Positions 12,202 to 37,797 of a stretch of 37,797 bases of DNA are shown piece by piece (the stretch's first letter is position 1; the number at the start of each line of letters is the position of its first letter). The DNA lies in the IMG/VR virus record IMGVR_UViG_3300025687_000136, positions 1-37,797 of that record; one strand, written 5' to 3'. A program made the translations under genes and the position numbers. The notes beneath the pieces are model-generated. The model searched no databases and was not told the DNA's origin. It saw nothing but the letters and a program-made list of their open reading frames with translations. Source of the DNA: a virus.

Positions 12202-12641
12202 CAGTTTACGACTTATCAGCGACATACAAGCGATTGCTGGAGCAGTATTTGCGAGCCAACTTGCCGACTGGATTGCTGGCAGCTAATACGCACAATACCG
12301 ACCTTGGCACAAAGCCAACGCTGTCGCAAACGGCAATCAATGCAATTCAGTACACGCGAGAAATTGATTTTCCGCAGTCGGTTGGCGGGTTTGTTCGCGC
12401 GTCATCGCTGCATTTTATTGATTTATTTGTGCCGGCCGACAAAATCAGCTTAATCAACACGGCACAGCAGCAAACAATGCCGGCACTTTTGCAGTCATTC
12501 AGCAACATTAATATTGCTAACGACGGCTTGTTGCGCTCGTTTGATGCTACGCCGGAAACAATCGGTTATACTGATGACAGCCCATGGTATCGCTTGGGCA
12601 TTCAAGTTTTGATTACTTATGAGGGCTTAACAAATGGCTAG
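12198..12641 (+). CDS. Tail terminator-like protein
   Basis: A 147-residue protein directly before the tail tube gene, the standard place of the tail terminator (lambda gpU-like, DUF4128). It contains a central strand region (SSLHFIDLFVPADK) and a C-terminal strand (GIQVLITYEG). The ring it would form caps the tail tube at the head-proximal end. Coupled by ATGA to the preceding gene, and its end overlaps the tube gene by 8 bp. Confidence 0.68.
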   Translation: MTVYDLSATYKRLLEQYLRANLPTGLLAANTHNTDLGTKPTLSQTAINAIQYTREIDFPQSVGGFVRASSLHFIDLFVPADKISLINTAQQQTMPALLQSFSNINIANDGLLRSFDATPETIGYTDDSPWYRLGIQVLITYEGLTNG

Positions 12642-13788
12642 ACAGCTTGTCCGCAGTGACATTGATTTATTTTACAAGGTGCAAACCACGGTTGGCACTC
12701 CTGACGCAACTCCGCAATTTACCCGGGTCCAGCGCTCAAGCGGCGTTATCCAGCAAAACACCGCATACGTTCAAGGCAACAACCTGACACAAAATCGCGG
12801 CGGCAAAGAGCAGGTTTATGATCGCATCGATTACCAAGCGACCATCGAGGCTGACATCACAACTCAGCTAAAAGATTTTTTAGTCGCTGGTTTGCATGCT
12901 GTGCTTGATGACAATTCGCATACCGGTACTGATGTTGCAATTTTAGCCAATGGCTTGACTGTTCCGAGCAACACCATCGCAATCGGTGACTTTGTTTTTC
13001 TGAGTGGCGCAACAAATCCACTGAACAACATTGCCTACCGTGTTACTGGTAAATCTGGCGATGATTTAGTAACAAGCCCAGCACCAGCAGCAACCGAGGC
13101 GGCAGGCGCGAGCATGACGGTTTCCAGTAAAAAATACGCCAACGGCATGACGCAAACTGCGTTTATGTTTCAGGAGCGGATTTATGACGAAAGCGCGGTT
13201 GGCAATCTTAACCACCAGTCTTTCTACGACTTTTTTGCTAACAATTGCACAGTGACAGTGCCGGAAACTGGTATTTGTACTGCGTCAGTCGAGACTGTAG
13301 GCAACTACAAAATCGCCGGAACCGCAGCAATTAGCGGCCAAACGGATGCAGCAGCAACAGCTTACGAAACCACCAGTGCCGTGCATAATGTGGAAAACTT
13401 CTGGCTTGATGATTCGCCGCTAGCTGATTGTGCGGTAATTAGCTATGAAGCGACTGTAAGCAATGGTTACGAGACATCACCGGGCGCAGCTTGTGAGTCG
13501 CCACATTACATTATGGGTGCAAATCCAGAGTTTACTGGTACGGCGGTGATGCGTCCTTATGTTGACGACTCGCGCAAGTGGCAGAAAATCGCGGAGGACC
13601 CGACAAACAACCAAGGTTTCGGCTTGGAATTCAATTGGTCCGATGGTAAAAAAGCCATCATCTATATGCCAAAAGCCAAATTCACAGCGGCAACTGCGGA
13701 GGGTGATAACGCTCAAACTGTTAGCGTGACGTTTGCTGGCCAAGAAGATGCAAACGGCGAAACAATGGTACTGTTCACAAACTGGTAA
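12634..13788 (+). CDS. Major tail (tube) protein
   Basis: A 384-residue protein with the N-terminal pattern of phage tail tube proteins: LFYKVQTTVGTPDATPQFTRVQRSSG, then NRGGKEQVYDRIDYQATIEADI. The rest is strand-rich with a Thr/Ala-rich insertion. The end (AEGDNAQTVSVTFAGQED) is typical of the last tube strand. It polymerises into the long tail tube. It is the last gene before a strong bidirectional terminator; the tail chaperones lie beyond an inverted dUTPase operon. Confidence 0.85.
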   Translation: MARQLVRSDIDLFYKVQTTVGTPDATPQFTRVQRSSGVIQQNTAYVQGNNLTQNRGGKEQVYDRIDYQATIEADITTQLKDFLVAGLHAVLDDNSHTGTDVAILANGLTVPSNTIAIGDFVFLSGATNPLNNIAYRVTGKSGDDLVTSPAPAATEAAGASMTVSSKKYANGMTQTAFMFQERIYDESAVGNLNHQSFYDFFANNCTVTVPETGICTASVETVGNYKIAGTAAISGQTDAAATAYETTSAVHNVENFWLDDSPLADCAVISYEATVSNGYETSPGAACESPHYIMGANPEFTGTAVMRPYVDDSRKWQKIAEDPTNNQGFGLEFNWSDGKKAIIYMPKAKFTAATAEGDNAQTVSVTFAGQEDANGETMVLFTNW

Positions 13789-13823: not shown

Positions 13824-14186
13824 CTAAATGTAACCACGATTTCTTAGTGAATTTACAGCACCACAAAGATCTTCATCGAGGTATATTTTATGGCTATTTC
13901 TAACAAGCTTATATAACGCCACTAGATTTTTACCAAGCGGGCTCAGCTCGCAGTAATGATAACCCTGAGCATAGTCATAGTGACAAAAGAATGGCGATAT
14001 CTTGTCCGGCACGTTAGCTGCAATTATCTTGTATTCACACGTCCAAAAAAGAAATTTAGATTCTTTTATTGTCCAGCTAAACTGATCTTCCTTATCCAAA
14101 TCATTATACAAAATTACATCACGAGCAAGGTCAATGATCTTGCTCACTTCTTCGTCTGTAAATACTACTCTTACGTAACCTTTCAT
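13824..14186 (-). CDS. Hypothetical protein, last gene of dUTPase operon
   Basis: A 120-residue soluble protein, aromatic- and acidic-rich (FSWTIKESKFLFWTCEYKI), with no recognised family. The start overlaps the stop of the 57-residue gene (TAATG). Its coding DNA looks more A/T-rich than the adjacent tail genes, in line with an inserted accessory operon. Confidence 0.65.
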   Translation of the reverse strand: MKGYVRVVFTDEEVSKIIDLARDVILYNDLDKEDQFSWTIKESKFLFWTCEYKIIAANVPDKISPFFCHYDYAQGYHYCELSPLGKNLVALYKLVRNSHKIYLDEDLCGAVNSLRNRGYI

Positions 14187-14359
14187 TACATTTCCTCAGC
14201 TTCTTTGCTGTTCACTTCTGATAGCTGCTCTTTCAGCAACTCAATTTCAGCCTGTTGCCGCTCAATCAGTAGCAACGACAATCTTGCAGTTTCGCTTGCT
14301 GAGCTTAGTTGATTATGCACCAATGCGCGTAGGCTTGATTTTATATAGTTGACGTTCAT
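14186..14359 (-). CDS. 57-residue coiled-coil protein
   Basis: A 57-residue protein predicted as a single amphipathic helix or short coiled coil (LLLIERQQAEIELLKEQLSE). Both ends are coupled: ATG overlaps the dUTPase stop (ATGA at 14359-14356) and its TAA overlaps the next ATG. These overlaps, and the absence of any gap between its neighbours, make it a probable real gene. Function unknown. Confidence 0.65.
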   Translation of the reverse strand: MNVNYIKSSLRALVHNQLSSASETARLSLLLIERQQAEIELLKEQLSEVNSKEAEEM

Positions 14360-14739
14360 TCGCCAGTGCTCCCAAACCCGCCTGAACGCTCATTATTAGC
14401 AACAGGAAACACGCCGTAAACATATTGCACAGGCACTAATTGAGCGATGCGTTCGCCTTTCTCAAGCGTTACTGGCTCGGTGTTGAGGTTGGTCATCATC
14501 GCCATAATCTCGTCTGGATAGTCAGAGTCAATTAAGCCAACGCCGTTGGATAAAATAAGTCGGCGCTTGTATGCAATGCTTGAGCGGATCATTAGCAACA
14601 GCGCTATACCGCTAGGCAATCCGCTTGGCACATATGCGCCCGTTGATACCAGAGCTGTTTGGTTTGGCTGGATTGTTACAGTCTTTGCGCAAACTAAATC
14701 AGCACCAGCACTGCCTAGCGTTTTGTGTGTAGGTGTCAT
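14356..14739 (-). CDS. dut: dUTPase, trimeric type
   Basis: A 127-residue dUTP pyrophosphatase with all five motifs in order: GSAGADL (I), MIRSSIAYKR (II, with the Ser that activates phosphate), NGVGLIDSDYPDEI (III, with catalytic Asp and Tyr), GERIAQLV (IV) and RSGGFGSTG (V). It hydrolyses dUTP to dUMP and PPi, keeping uracil out of phage DNA and supplying dTMP precursors. Motif III carries Pro-Asp where family members usually have Arg/Asp-Gly. AGGAG precedes the ATG. It leads a small inverted operon between tail tube and tail chaperone. Confidence 0.93.
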   Translation of the reverse strand: MTPTHKTLGSAGADLVCAKTVTIQPNQTALVSTGAYVPSGLPSGIALLLMIRSSIAYKRRLILSNGVGLIDSDYPDEIMAMMTNLNTEPVTLEKGERIAQLVPVQYVYGVFPVANNERSGGFGSTGE

Positions 14740-14802: not shown

Positions 14803-15231
14803 ATGCTAATAAAAGAACTAGTCGGATTTCTTGAAGATGAAGGATTACAAGCGAATGGTGCGCCGTTTTACCTTTCGTCAATCTATCCGAGCAACAACGG
14901 CGTGTTTTACGTGTCGCGCTTTGGCTGCGTTGAATCAGTTAAGCAGATGAAAAAGCTACGGAAACAACTACACGGATTTGACTCGACAAAAGACGTTGAT
15001 GAAGCTGAATTAATCGCGATCTGGCTTGCTGAATTCGGCGTGACAGGCTGGGAAAATCTCACTGACGCCAACGATAACGAAGTGCCATTTACTCGAGCAA
15101 ATTGCCGTCAAGTGTTTGCTGATAAGCGGCTCAAGTTGAGCTTGTGCAACGAATTGTTTCGCTTTGCTTGTAATTATGAGCATTACATTAAAGAGCAAAT
15201 TATCGAGGACATTGATGCGCTAAAAAAGTAG
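14803..15231 (+). CDS. Tail assembly chaperone, short form (gpG-like)
   Basis: A 142-residue protein immediately upstream of the tape measure region. The segment FGVTGWENLTDANDNEVPFTRANCRQVF resembles siphophage tail assembly chaperones, which bind the tape measure protein during tail assembly. It ends ...CTA AAA AAG TAG, placing a perfect A AAA AAG slippery heptamer right before the stop. A -1 shift there fuses it to the following frame to give a protein of about 256 residues, in the manner of lambda gpG/gpGT. Confidence 0.82.
   Translation: MLIKELVGFLEDEGLQANGAPFYLSSIYPSNNGVFYVSRFGCVESVKQMKKLRKQLHGFDSTKDVDEAELIAIWLAEFGVTGWENLTDANDNEVPFTRANCRQVFADKRLKLSLCNELFRFACNYEHYIKEQIIEDIDALKK
15222..15228 (+). 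other. -1 programmed ribosomal frameshift site (A AAA AAG)
   Basis: The heptamer matches X XXY YYZ in the correct phase: zero-frame codons are AAA AAG followed by TAG. After a -1 slip, reading continues GTA GTG GCG TGG into the 113-residue frame. This is the dnaX-type heptamer, highly efficient in E. coli. No obvious strong stimulatory stem was identified downstream by eye. Confidence 0.82.
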
Positions 15232-15572
15232 TGGCGTGGGACATTGACGGCAAGGCAAACGAATCGGCTATGGCTAGCGCTGAAAAGTTAGCTAAGAAGT
15301 TTGGTTCAGCAGCCGTGCCGCCAGTTAAACCACGACCAACATTGACTGATGAGCAGTCACACGCATTAGCGTTATTTAATCGCGCTAGCTCAAGCCGTGA
15401 ATACTCAAGCGGCTATCCAATGCGACTTAGCGAGATTGTGCTTAGGCAGTACATTGAGATTTACGGCGCTGGCTGTTATCAAATCAGCGATTTAGTTGAT
15501 ATACTGTTATGCGTAGACACTCATTACATCGACATTCATGTCGAGAAAATAAAAGCGAGCGCTAAGCAATGA
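15231..15572 (+). CDS. Tail assembly chaperone frameshift extension (gpT-like)
   Basis: The frame runs without stop from the frameshift site to the tape measure start. As a -1 fusion it adds 114 residues to the 142-residue chaperone; a GTG at 15231 would allow separate translation but has no good ribosome site. The region begins with a polar, Pro-rich linker (AVPPVKPRPTLTDEQ) and continues as a helical domain (RLSEIVLRQYIEIYGAG). In lambda the T domain recruits the tube protein to the tape measure complex. It overlaps the tape measure ATG by ATGA. Confidence 0.75.
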   Translation: MAWDIDGKANESAMASAEKLAKKFGSAAVPPVKPRPTLTDEQSHALALFNRASSSREYSSGYPMRLSEIVLRQYIEIYGAGCYQISDLVDILLCVDTHYIDIHVEKIKASAKQ

Positions 15573-17767
15573 CAGATACAGCGGTTATTAAGATTAAACT
15601 TGATGCTGGCGAGGCGCAGAGCGGCGCAGACAAGCTAGACAAATCAATGAGCAATCTAGGGTCAACTGCCAGCAAAGTCGCACTGGCAGTGGCCGCAGCT
15701 TTAAGTGTTGGAAAGTTAACCCAGTATAGCGACGCGTGGGTCAAAGTCGGAAACCAAATCAGGCAAGCCACCAAAACTGTTGATGAGTTTGCGGCCGTTC
15801 AAGCTCGCATATTTGGTATCGCTCAAGCTACGCGCTCTGACATCGAAGGCATTAGCGCAGCGTATCAACGGCTAGCTAACTCTGTGGCAAACTTTGGAGT
15901 AAGTCAGGCCGACGTGTTGCGAGTCACTGAAGGTCTAACAAAGGCGTTTAAAGCTAACGGTGCAAGTGCGGCTGAGGTTAGTTCTGTACTTGTGCAACTA
16001 GGACAAGGTCTTGGTACTGGCGCTTTGCAGGGTGACGAATTGCGTTCGGTGCTTGAGTCGTCGCTGCCAGTGGCTCAGGCAATTGCCAAAGAGTTTGGCG
16101 TGCAAACTGGCGAGCTTAAGAAGCTAGGCGAGCAAGGTAAGCTTACTTCTGAGCGAGTGTTTCAAGCGCTACTCAAGGGTGCAGATGAATTTGATGCCAA
16201 GTTTAGCAAAGCAATTCCAACGGCGGCAGACCAATTTCAAGTTCTGGAAAACTCAACAATTAGGCTGGTTGGCGAATTTAACACAGCAATCGGCGCAAGC
16301 GAGGCGCTAGGCGGTGTAATTGGTTCGGTTGCACAGTCACTTGATGAGCTTTCAGTGTTACTTGCTAGCGGAGCGGCTGGTAAGTTTGGCGAGTTGTTCG
16401 CAGATCAGGTTAGAGTTATTGGCACCGATGTTACTGCGACATTAAATACAGTTTTGTCAGTGTATCGGCAGTTTGATTTAAAACTTGTTGACGATACGAA
16501 TATTACAACTCAAGACATTAAAGATTCTTTCTTAAACATAATTCCCAATATTCGCTCTTTCGTCCAGCTTGCAACTGTTGAGTTTGCCGTACTGCTAGAT
16601 AAAGCCTCAGCCTACGGCGAGGCGATAGCCGCATCAATTAATCCATTCGATGACAAAGATAGGTTTGACGCAAGGGCGCTATTAAAAGAGCGCATTAAAC
16701 AGATTGATGATGTACGCGACGCAAGTATTGATTCGATAATTCAGCAAAACAGCGCAGCAAGACAAGCTACAGAAAAGCGAGTTAAAGAGGCTGAGCAGCT
16801 TGTTATCAGTTATGAAAAAGTAAAGTCTAAACAGGCTGAAATATTATCAACTGCTGCCATAGGCTCGAATGCGCTTGGCGTGTCAACTGTTACAAAGAAA
16901 GAAGAAGCTAAAGTCGATGTTGCTAGTGAAATAGAGCGCGAAAACGCAATCATTGGCCAAGCTCTAAGCAGCAGGTTGCAACTTTATGGCGCATATTCGC
17001 AAGCTGCTTTAAATGCCAATAGTAACGAATACGAACAAAGAAAAGCTCAGCTAGAGATACAGCTTGGCGAGCAGCGCATTAGAGAAGAAGAAAGCTTTCA
17101 GCAAGACCTTGCAAGGCTGCAAGAAAGAAGGCTTGAGATATTGAACAACGATAAAATTTCTGATGAAGAAAAAATTGCGGCGGTTACTGCTCTGTATGAG
17201 CAAGAGCGCTTGCTTGAGCTTTCCCACGAAGATGAGCTAACAAGAATAAAAGAGCAAGGCGTTAGCGCAAGGCAGGCTTTAGCTGTTCAGGAGCGTCTAG
17301 ATCAAATAAATACAATGCAGGGCTATTTCAACACAGCGCTAAGACTCGCTGACGCCTTTGGCAGCAAATCTGAAAAAGCGAACAAACGCAGACGTAGGAT
17401 CCAAGTTATCGCAGACGCAGCGGCCGGCGGGATTAGAGCTTATGCTGAGAATGATTTTTACACTGCGACGGGAATGGCGCTACTAATAGCTGCAAACGCT
17501 AAACTGGCATTAAACTCAATTAACAATAGCGGTAGTTCGGCTGCTTCGTTCGGCGCTAGCTCAGTTTCGGCAGCACCAACCGCACCAACGCTACAGCCAG
17601 CTAGCGAGCTTAATCAGCAAAAAATCATCAACATCAACATTGCTGACGATGCTGTGATAACTGGCGCGGTACTTAAGCAGACAGTCAAACAAGCGCTTGG
17701 CGATGACGACAGCGCTGTTATAATCAACTCAGCGCTGGAAAATGGCCGCAGAATTGGAGCGATTTAA
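15569..17767 (+). CDS. Tail tape measure protein
   Basis: A 732-residue protein with the tape_meas_nterm signature in the first 240 residues: IKIKLDAGEAQSGADKLDKS, then ALQGDELRSVLESSLPVAQAIA and the KLTSERVFQALLKG segment. Long coiled-coil helices follow, with KAQLEIQLGEQRIREEESFQ around 495-515, and a region near 610-650 that includes AGGIRAYAENDFYTATGMALLIA. It sets tail length during assembly and is ejected with DNA. At about 1.5 angstrom per residue the tail would be roughly 110 nm (estimate). The start overlaps the chaperone extension stop (ATGA). Confidence 0.9.
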   Translation: MTDTAVIKIKLDAGEAQSGADKLDKSMSNLGSTASKVALAVAAALSVGKLTQYSDAWVKVGNQIRQATKTVDEFAAVQARIFGIAQATRSDIEGISAAYQRLANSVANFGVSQADVLRVTEGLTKAFKANGASAAEVSSVLVQLGQGLGTGALQGDELRSVLESSLPVAQAIAKEFGVQTGELKKLGEQGKLTSERVFQALLKGADEFDAKFSKAIPTAADQFQVLENSTIRLVGEFNTAIGASEALGGVIGSVAQSLDELSVLLASGAAGKFGELFADQVRVIGTDVTATLNTVLSVYRQFDLKLVDDTNITTQDIKDSFLNIIPNIRSFVQLATVEFAVLLDKASAYGEAIAASINPFDDKDRFDARALLKERIKQIDDVRDASIDSIIQQNSAARQATEKRVKEAEQLVISYEKVKSKQAEILSTAAIGSNALGVSTVTKKEEAKVDVASEIERENAIIGQALSSRLQLYGAYSQAALNANSNEYEQRKAQLEIQLGEQRIREEESFQQDLARLQERRLEILNNDKISDEEKIAAVTALYEQERLLELSHEDELTRIKEQGVSARQALAVQERLDQINTMQGYFNTALRLADAFGSKSEKANKRRRRIQVIADAAAGGIRAYAENDFYTATGMALLIAANAKLALNSINNSGSSAASFGASSVSAAPTAPTLQPASELNQQKIININIADDAVITGAVLKQTVKQALGDDDSAVIINSALENGRRIGAI

Positions 17768-27075: not shown

Positions 27076-27702
27076 TCAATTCGACTCGGGAAGAATTTGA
27101 CAAAACAGATCGATATACATTTTGTATTCTTTTATTTGCTCGCAAGAGTAACCGTTTTTTTTTCCAATAACCTCAAAATGAGACAGCCAGTGCTTAGGCG
27201 AGTGTTCTTGACAACCTATTCTGATCAGCCGACCATCTGGTGAGTTTACTTCGTGCATTGACCCTTTTATTTGTAGCTCAATGATGTCATCTGACCGCCA
27301 TAAGCCAATAAAAACACGAGCATTGCCGTAAACACGAGCATCGTCGGAAACACGAGCATTGCCGTAAATCCAAGCATCGCCGTAAATCCAAGCATTGCCG
27401 GAAACACGAGCATCGTCGAAAACACGAGCATCGCCGTAAATCCAAGCATTGCCGGAAACACGAGCATCGTCGAAAACACGAGCATCGTCGGAAACACGAG
27501 CATCGTCGGAAACACAAGCATTGCCGTAAACACGAGCATTGCCGTAAATCCAAGCATTGCCGTACTGCGATAAGTTTGATTCTTTCTCTATCCACCCACC
27601 AACATCGCCATCTTTTACGTCAGAAAACGAGGTAACACACTCAATTTGATGAAGCGTTACTCCATTTACTACTTTTGTGTTGAAGTTAAATTTGTATTTC
27701 AT
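27076..27702 (-). CDS. Hexapeptide-repeat (beta-helix) protein
   Basis: A 208-residue protein. Residues 1-46 form an N-terminal cap (DVKDGDVGGWIEKESNLSQ), typical of phage proteins with YGNA repeats. Residues 47-130 are 14 six-residue repeats of the type (Y/S/F)(G/D)(N/D)A(R/W/C)(V/I), expected to fold as a left-handed beta-helix. The C-terminal 75 residues form a separate cysteine- and aromatic-containing domain. Proteins of this layout are common in phage accessory regions and of unknown function. The whole gene lies between 62-bp direct repeats, so it may be a movable cassette. Confidence 0.7.
   Translation of the reverse strand: MKYKFNFNTKVVNGVTLHQIECVTSFSDVKDGDVGGWIEKESNLSQYGNAWIYGNARVYGNACVSDDARVSDDARVFDDARVSGNAWIYGDARVFDDARVSGNAWIYGDAWIYGNARVSDDARVYGNARVFIGLWRSDDIIELQIKGSMHEVNSPDGRLIRIGCQEHSPKHWLSHFEVIGKKNGYSCEQIKEYKMYIDLFCQILPESN
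27308..27562 (-). repeat. 18-bp tandem repeat array inside the hexapeptide-repeat gene
   Basis: Units of 18 bp (six codons) repeat about 14 times with several variant forms, including runs that are identical over more than 30 bp. Copy number is likely to change by slippage or recombination, always in multiples of six residues, so the helix length could vary without loss of frame. Confidence 0.85.
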
Positions 27703-36973: not shown

Positions 36974-37161
36974 ACGGACTATTACAAGCTATGGTTAGTG
37001 GCGACACTGAAACTTATAAGCGCTTAGACAGCGAGATTGAAGCGAAAATTCGTGGGACTGAGTACAAGGCAAATCCGCACGGCATGTATGCGCTGTACAA
37101 AGACAAGAACGGCGAATGGCGCGAGAGTGCGACAAAGCGGAATAGTGATTTATGCGAATAA
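36970..37161 (+). CDS. Small hypothetical protein upstream of antitoxin
   Basis: A 63-residue protein (TYKRLDSEIEAKIRGTEYK, NPHGMYALYKDKNGEWRE). GTG 36970 overlaps the previous stop and is preceded by GGAGG. Its last 10 bp overlap the antitoxin start, so the two are coupled. It bears no resemblance to RelE, YoeB, Doc or other known partner toxins, so it should not be called the toxin without test. The end of a second allele lies at 1-32. Confidence 0.6.
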   Translation: MNGLLQAMVSGDTETYKRLDSEIEAKIRGTEYKANPHGMYALYKDKNGEWRESATKRNSDLCE

Positions 37162-37403
37162 TCAGTATTAGCGAAATGAAGTTAAACGCTGCAAATTTGC
37201 GTGACGAAATCGGCGACAATACGCTATTTGTCACGCAAAACGGGAACCAATCACTAGTTGTGATGAGCGATGATAGTTATGCGGCTATGATGCAAAAGCA
37301 CGCCGAACTTGGCGCGGCGATTGATGATTTATGGCCGGATGACGAGCGAATTAACGCTATTGGGCAGAATGGGAATACTGGGGAGCATTACAAAGGCGCC
37401 TAG
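37152..37403 (+). CDS. Phd/YefM-like antitoxin, second allele
   Basis: An 83-residue protein identical to the copy at 23-274 except at three positions (residue 11 Leu for Ser, residue 24 Thr for Ala, residue 51 Ala for Ser), although many synonymous bases differ. The mostly synonymous changes imply purifying selection and hence a functional protein. Context is complete here: it is coupled to the 63-residue gene upstream and followed by the terminator and the TerS promoter. Confidence 0.75.
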   Translation: MRIISISEMKLNAANLRDEIGDNTLFVTQNGNQSLVVMSDDSYAAMMQKHAELGAAIDDLWPDDERINAIGQNGNTGEHYKGA

Positions 37404-37412
37404 CGCCTTTTC
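37392..37412 (+). terminator. Intrinsic terminator overlapping antitoxin stop, second allele
   Basis: AAAGGCGC-CTA-GCGCCTTTT. The arms are conserved with the first copy and only the loop base differs. Confidence 0.7.
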
Positions 37413-37481
37413 AACTTTAGGTTATTTTGCTAGTATTTGAGTGCGCAGGCTGTGCTTGTGCAACTAATTAGAGGTTTGTCA

Positions 37482-37797
37482 ATGACAAATAAATTAACAC
37501 CAAAAAAAGAAAAGTTTTGCCAACTATACGTTCAGCTAGGCAATGCCAGCGAAGCTTATCGGCAGGCTTACAACTCGACTGCTAAGCAGGAGTGCGTTGC
37601 TGTTGAGGCGTCAAAGCTGATGGCAACTCCTAATATCTCCCTAAGGGTTAAGGCGCTTCAAGCTGAGACTGAGGAGCAAGCCTTCTGGACTCGCATGGAC
37701 AGCTTAAAGGTGCTCGCATCAATCGCCCGTGGCGACGATGAAGAGGCAAAGCCAGCGGATAAAGTTTCGGCTGTAAAAGTGATAAACTCAATGCACG
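37482..37797 (+). CDS. terS: Terminase small subunit, second allele (cut by window end)
   Basis: The first 105 codons of the same Terminase_2 protein as at 354-758, cut by the window end. A few substitutions occur (for example the ELQAETEEQ segment reads ALQAETEEQ), and the last 127 bases are identical to the first copy. It is not a second gene but most likely the other end of a circular map. Confidence 0.85.
   Translation, partial: MTNKLTPKKEKFCQLYVQLGNASEAYRQAYNSTAKQECVAVEASKLMATPNISLRVKALQAETEEQAFWTRMDSLKVLASIARGDDEEAKPADKVSAVKVINSMH

Follow-up and report, generated by a model that had tools for sequence, protein, structure and literature searches.

A probable programmed −1 frameshift joining two predicted tail assembly chaperone frames, and its apparent loss in a sister clade

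Known chaperone frameshifts and the layout of the locus

Xu, Hendrix and Duda are said to have described, in 2004, the gpG/gpGT frameshift of phage lambda and its wide conservation in long-tailed phages. According to published accounts, the lambda −1 frameshift takes place on the heptamer G GGA AAG (PMC3483164, PMC5009743), and the G/GT frameshift is widely conserved in long-tailed phages (PMC5009743). The heptamer A AAA AAG has been listed for the chaperone sites of Burkholderia phage AH2, E. coli VT1-Sakai, and psiM2, and further for those of S. aureus PVL/PV83 and L. lactis ul36 (PMC3483164); these share both heptamer and gene pair with the locus described below, but belong to separate phage groups. 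The same heptamer is used in E. coli dnaX, with a Shine-Dalgarno (SD)-like sequence at a similar distance upstream. However, the dnaX shift yields a shorter product and involves a strong stem-loop, whereas the shift considered here would yield a longer product, and no conserved stem-loop was found.

The window analyzed, a stretch of viral DNA of 37,797 nucleotides, very probably encodes a programmed −1 ribosomal frameshift by which two predicted tail assembly chaperones are made from one start codon. The features on which this reading draws are as follows.

12634..13788, + strand: probable major tail tube protein gene, upstream, in the gpV position; phrog_290 'minor tail protein' (E=1.8e-21)
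14803..15231, + strand: zero-frame tail assembly chaperone gene, gpG-like, 142 aa; phrog_313 match and fold match
15205..15209, + strand: SD-like GAGGA, candidate upstream stimulator, about 13 nt before the heptamer
15222..15228, + strand: slippery heptamer A AAA AAG in X XXY YYZ phase, kept in relatives at 30-40% identity
15229..15231, + strand: zero-frame stop TAG, immediately 3′ of the heptamer; the stop lies 0-1 codons past the heptamer across close-family frameshift-type relatives
15228..15572, + strand: −1 frame, gpT-like extension, 114 aa plus TGA; open frame, homology, and dN/dS
15569..17767, + strand: tape measure protein gene; PF20155 TMP_3 (E=1.4e-58) and many PHROG tape measure matches

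The zero frame runs from ATG 14803 to TAG 15229-15231 (142 codons) and ends, at 15220-15231, in CTA AAA AAG TAG, so that both the ending and the heptamer phase given in the initial annotation are correct to the base. After a −1 slip, the first codon is GTA 15228, and the frame then stays open to TGA 15570-15572; its openness had been recognized, with a count of 115 codons that includes the stop, the number of sense codons being 114. The predicted fusion therefore comprises 142 + 114 = 256 aa, with the junction LKK-VVAWDIDG, and both product lengths proposed earlier (142 and about 256 residues) agree with the reading frames. The tape measure ATG 15569 overlaps the −1-frame TGA as ATGA, again as first described.

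The probable tail tube gene lies upstream of the chaperone locus, and the tape measure gene directly adjoins it downstream. The HS1/HS5 gene at the position orthologous to 12634-13788 is annotated 'tail tube protein'. Two opposite-strand ORFs (13824-14739, minus strand) intervene between the tail tube and chaperone genes, one of them encoding a dUTPase (phrog_135, E=1.3e-41; PF00692, E=8.8e-21), and the chaperone/tape-measure block may therefore need its own promoter. A minus-strand ORF was also observed at the corresponding place in H105/1-type phages.

The gpG/gpGT arrangement originally proposed is borne out, and the chaperone identity is supported by gene order and by the PHROG and fold matches given below. 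The likeness to lambda lies in the arrangement only: two overlapping frames between the tail tube and tape measure genes, a heptamer in phase near the end of the first frame, a long product made by a −1 shift, and a second frame that runs into the tape measure gene. Unlike in lambda, the heptamer is a different one, the stop codon lies directly at the heptamer, an SD-like element is present, and there is no clear 3′ structure.

Most ribosomes would terminate at TAG 15229, giving the 142-aa G-type chaperone. In a minority, the tRNA-Lys occupying the P and A sites over AAA AAG would slip back by one base and pair anew with AAA AAA, so that reading goes on to TGA 15570 and yields the 256-aa GT-type protein. 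If lambda is a guide, the G part may coat the tape measure protein, the T part may recruit the tail tube subunit, and neither chaperone would be expected in the virion. The heptamer, its phase, the open frame, purifying selection, conservation, and homology across the junction are read from the sequence; from there we infer that slippage occurs, its rate, and the G/GT roles.

Chaperone identity and signals around the heptamer

The 142-aa zero-frame product matches phrog_313 'Tail assembly chaperone' (E=3.5e-10, 40.9 bits), and joining the −1 part to it raises the score to 52.2 bits (E=1.3e-13), with the 256-aa trans-frame product aligned across the junction over residues 49-251. A further match of the trans-frame product is to phrog_8233, another family of tail assembly chaperones. 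For the zero-frame (G) part, the AlphaFold model (pLDDT 85) matches BFVD entries predicted to be phage tail assembly chaperones (best E=6e-8), while the match for the model of the −1 (T) part (pLDDT 81) is weaker, the best named hit being a pre-tape measure chaperone (E=0.02). A fold search of the PDB with the G-part model gave no useful match, and Pfam has no model for either chaperone part. Taken alone, the −1 part gives a weak match in PHROG and none in a tblastn search of 50,697 phage records (E<=0.1).

Across the putative genes of the window (10,887 codons), an in-phase A AAA AAG was observed only 4 times, and stops occupy 9.2% of codons in the −1 frame of its + strand genes, with the longest open −1 run inside the nine + strand genes being 61 codons. 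Taking this phage's + strand genes as background, the chance of 114 open −1 codons is about 1.6e-5, so a run of this length is not expected to have arisen by chance. The −1 frame opens only about 13 nt before TAG, and the overlap that would permit a working shift is consequently tiny; beyond TAG, the zero and +1 frames are full of stops.

Upstream, 14 nt lie between GAGG and the heptamer's second base, and the same spacing was found in 7 of 8 frameshifting lineages (the exception being L024), compared with a background in which an SD-like motif lies in the 6-17 nt range at 8.3% of other sites in the window phage. The set of SD-like motifs and the spacing are within the range reported to be stimulatory (PMC4066793). 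Furthermore, the Glu codon in the motif is always GAG, a codon that otherwise makes up 35-45% of Glu codons, and the fused homologues described below carry no SD-like element. GAGG(A) is therefore a likely stimulator, judged by an after-the-fact test that backs rather than proves this role.

Downstream, no conserved or significant hairpin was found in the window or in its relatives: the folding z ranges from −0.8 to +1 in the window, depending on the stretch, and is near zero in most relatives. The only marked downstream stem-loop (z=−2.4) occurs in L024, the lineage without the SD-like element. Of the elements of a dnaX-type cassette, the locus thus has the upstream SD-like sequence and not the downstream stimulatory stem-loop. 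With regard to efficiency, A AAA AAG alone gives about 2% frameshifting in E. coli (PMC5600365), and two measured tail-chaperone frameshifts reach 6-7% (PMC3711429). These rates would predict a low frameshift rate here, and GAGGA should raise it above that of A AAA AAG alone.

Conservation, selection, and rival explanations

Direct searches with the window protein were nearly empty—a single identical record among viral contigs, and nothing among genome contigs or plasmids—and an alignment query was therefore needed to find relatives. This query (A1) returned 23 viral contigs, the H105/1 and BS5 records included; HS1, HS5, and HS2 were taken from a phage collection. The frameshift-type set comprises 20 distinct sequences in 8 lineages, of which the other seven are about 30-40% identical to the window. 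In every split relative, an in-phase A AAA AAG closes the zero frame, except in L024, where the variant TTA AAA AAA AAC TGA is, to judge from its bases, slippery nonetheless. The stop follows within 0-1 codons of the heptamer, and the −1 frame stays open for about 98-119 codons past the stop, as far as the start of the tape measure gene or its immediate vicinity. The comparison of related phages that the initial annotation had recommended therefore came out in its favor, in that heptamer and open −1 frame are both kept by all frameshift-type relatives; neither a destroyed heptamer nor −1 stops turned up among them, and the only close heptamer-less relatives, the BS5/HS2 clade, do not need one, their frames being fused at the DNA level. 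The residues directly after the heptamer (ALxWD) are also conserved across relatives. Less closely related loci that precede tape measure genes likewise have a zero frame ending in a slippery heptamer, followed by an open −1 frame, the heptamers being G GGA AAC (L052), A AAA AAC (L057, L101), and A AAA AAA (L100/L108).

Selection was compared in clade A (10 sequences, dS about 0.5-0.6). Over 45 pairs, dN/dS comes to 0.028 in the zero-frame part and to 0.029 in the −1 part, and third positions, counted in the frame in which each part is read, take up 79-81% of changes. This equally strong purifying selection, together with the third-position bias, indicates that both frames are translated and constrained. 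Suppression of synonymous sites at the clade A junction is only suggestive, with the best 9-codon window in the lowest 6%.

For this phage taken alone, separate translation of the T part is conceivable: GTG 15231 overlaps TAG (TAGTG), and the deposited records of H105/1, HS1, and HS5 annotate a short ORF of its own whose start lies farther downstream. The downstream frame would then be a gene of its own, reached by reinitiation at GTG 15231 or a later start, with no frameshift. This is very improbable, because the −1 frame lacks ATG, GTG, and TTG in its first 30 codons in several relatives (L010, L011, L014, L017, L019, L021, L022, and L026), though the stretch is conserved. In addition, GAGGA lies about 20 nt from GTG, too far for ordinary initiation, and a separate gene leaves the in-phase retention of the heptamer unexplained. 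These start-less yet conserved beginnings, and the collinear single-frame homologues, argue for a frameshift rather than two genes.

An identical fusion product could be obtained by transcriptional slippage on the homopolymer of A at the junction, with one A added to some mRNAs. However, the run has only 6 A, whereas the runs for which realignment has been reported exceed 7 A (PMC3711429); the conserved codon phase, the G at position 7, and the SD-like element fit ribosomal slippage, and a distant relative has G GGA AAC at the same place. We regard transcriptional slippage as even less probable than a separate gene. Least probable of all is that a continuous frame was split by a one-A deletion in sequencing or assembly, or that the gene is truly broken. 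The homopolymer at the junction and the single continuous frames of the BS5/HS2 homologues would accord with such an event, but the same phase shift was found in 20 distinct sequences from many samples as well as in isolated, sequenced phages, and a second IMG/VR record (L002) is identical to the window over 6,426 bases; purifying selection on both parts also speaks against this reading. Programmed ribosomal frameshifting is thus the preferred explanation.

Annotation, the fused sister clade, and other observations

The Pseudoalteromonas phages H105/1, HS1, and HS5 share with the window the heptamer, GAGG, and open −1 frame, at 36-37% chaperone identity; their zero-frame stop lies one codon after the heptamer. 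Their records annotate the frameshift gene as two unlinked hypothetical proteins and miss the long product (locus records L003, 2441-3261; L004, 1441-2261; and L005, 1441-2261), and a literature search of limited depth found no frameshift report for H105/1-type phages. The present reading thus corrects gene calls in these three public genomes as well as in the window phage.

The frameshift mechanism itself is already textbook; the mildly interesting part is its apparent loss in a sister clade. The homologous chaperone of the Pseudoalteromonas phages BS5 and HS2 is one continuous 238-aa frame, and single-frame, heptamer-less records of this clade include L006, L007, L030, L033, and L034. As in the window, BS5, HS2, and the Arcobacter-MAG contig NYWO01000016 carry the homologous chaperone immediately upstream of a tape measure gene that is homologous too; unlike in the window, the 238-aa frame is continuous, with neither a junction heptamer nor an SD-like element. 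The BS5, HS2, L030, and L033 proteins give a collinear, unbroken alignment across the junction (KPRLKFD in BS5/HS2 vs KK-ALKWD in the split relatives) and illustrate in nature the form of the joined product; a search of the fused homologues for a hidden frameshift found no in-phase heptamer near the junction. The joined proteins give a tree in which the fused clade is a single group (100/100) with the frameshifting L024 as its neighbor. The simplest reading, for a tree whose root is not independently fixed, is that the frameshift was lost once, in the BS5/HS2 clade. We lean slightly toward a single loss by DNA fusion, after which BS5/HS2 tails would be built with the long GT-type protein only, or with a short form made in some other way. 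If so, the window and its relatives would serve as the frameshifting control for testing the need for a G:GT ratio, and a bounded family holding both frameshifted and DNA-fused versions of the chaperone makes the need for two products testable.

Other parts of the window also deserve mention. Its ends, 1-669 and 37130-37797, are near-copies (632 of 668 aligned bases identical, 94.6%, with one gap) that cover the same two ORFs, and this imperfect terminal repeat looks less like an exact repeat of the ends than like an assembly that wrapped around across strain variants. On the minus strand, the ORF at 27076-27702 contains an 18-bp tandem repeat array that codes for YdcK-type beta-solenoid repeats (PF18836, E=2.6e-20), over which all three minus-strand frames are open for about 100 codons. 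The Ala/Tyr-rich tandem-repeat ORF at 35792-36316 matches Imm5-like immunity protein models (PF21805, E=9.9e-9), a match that is unusual for a phage.
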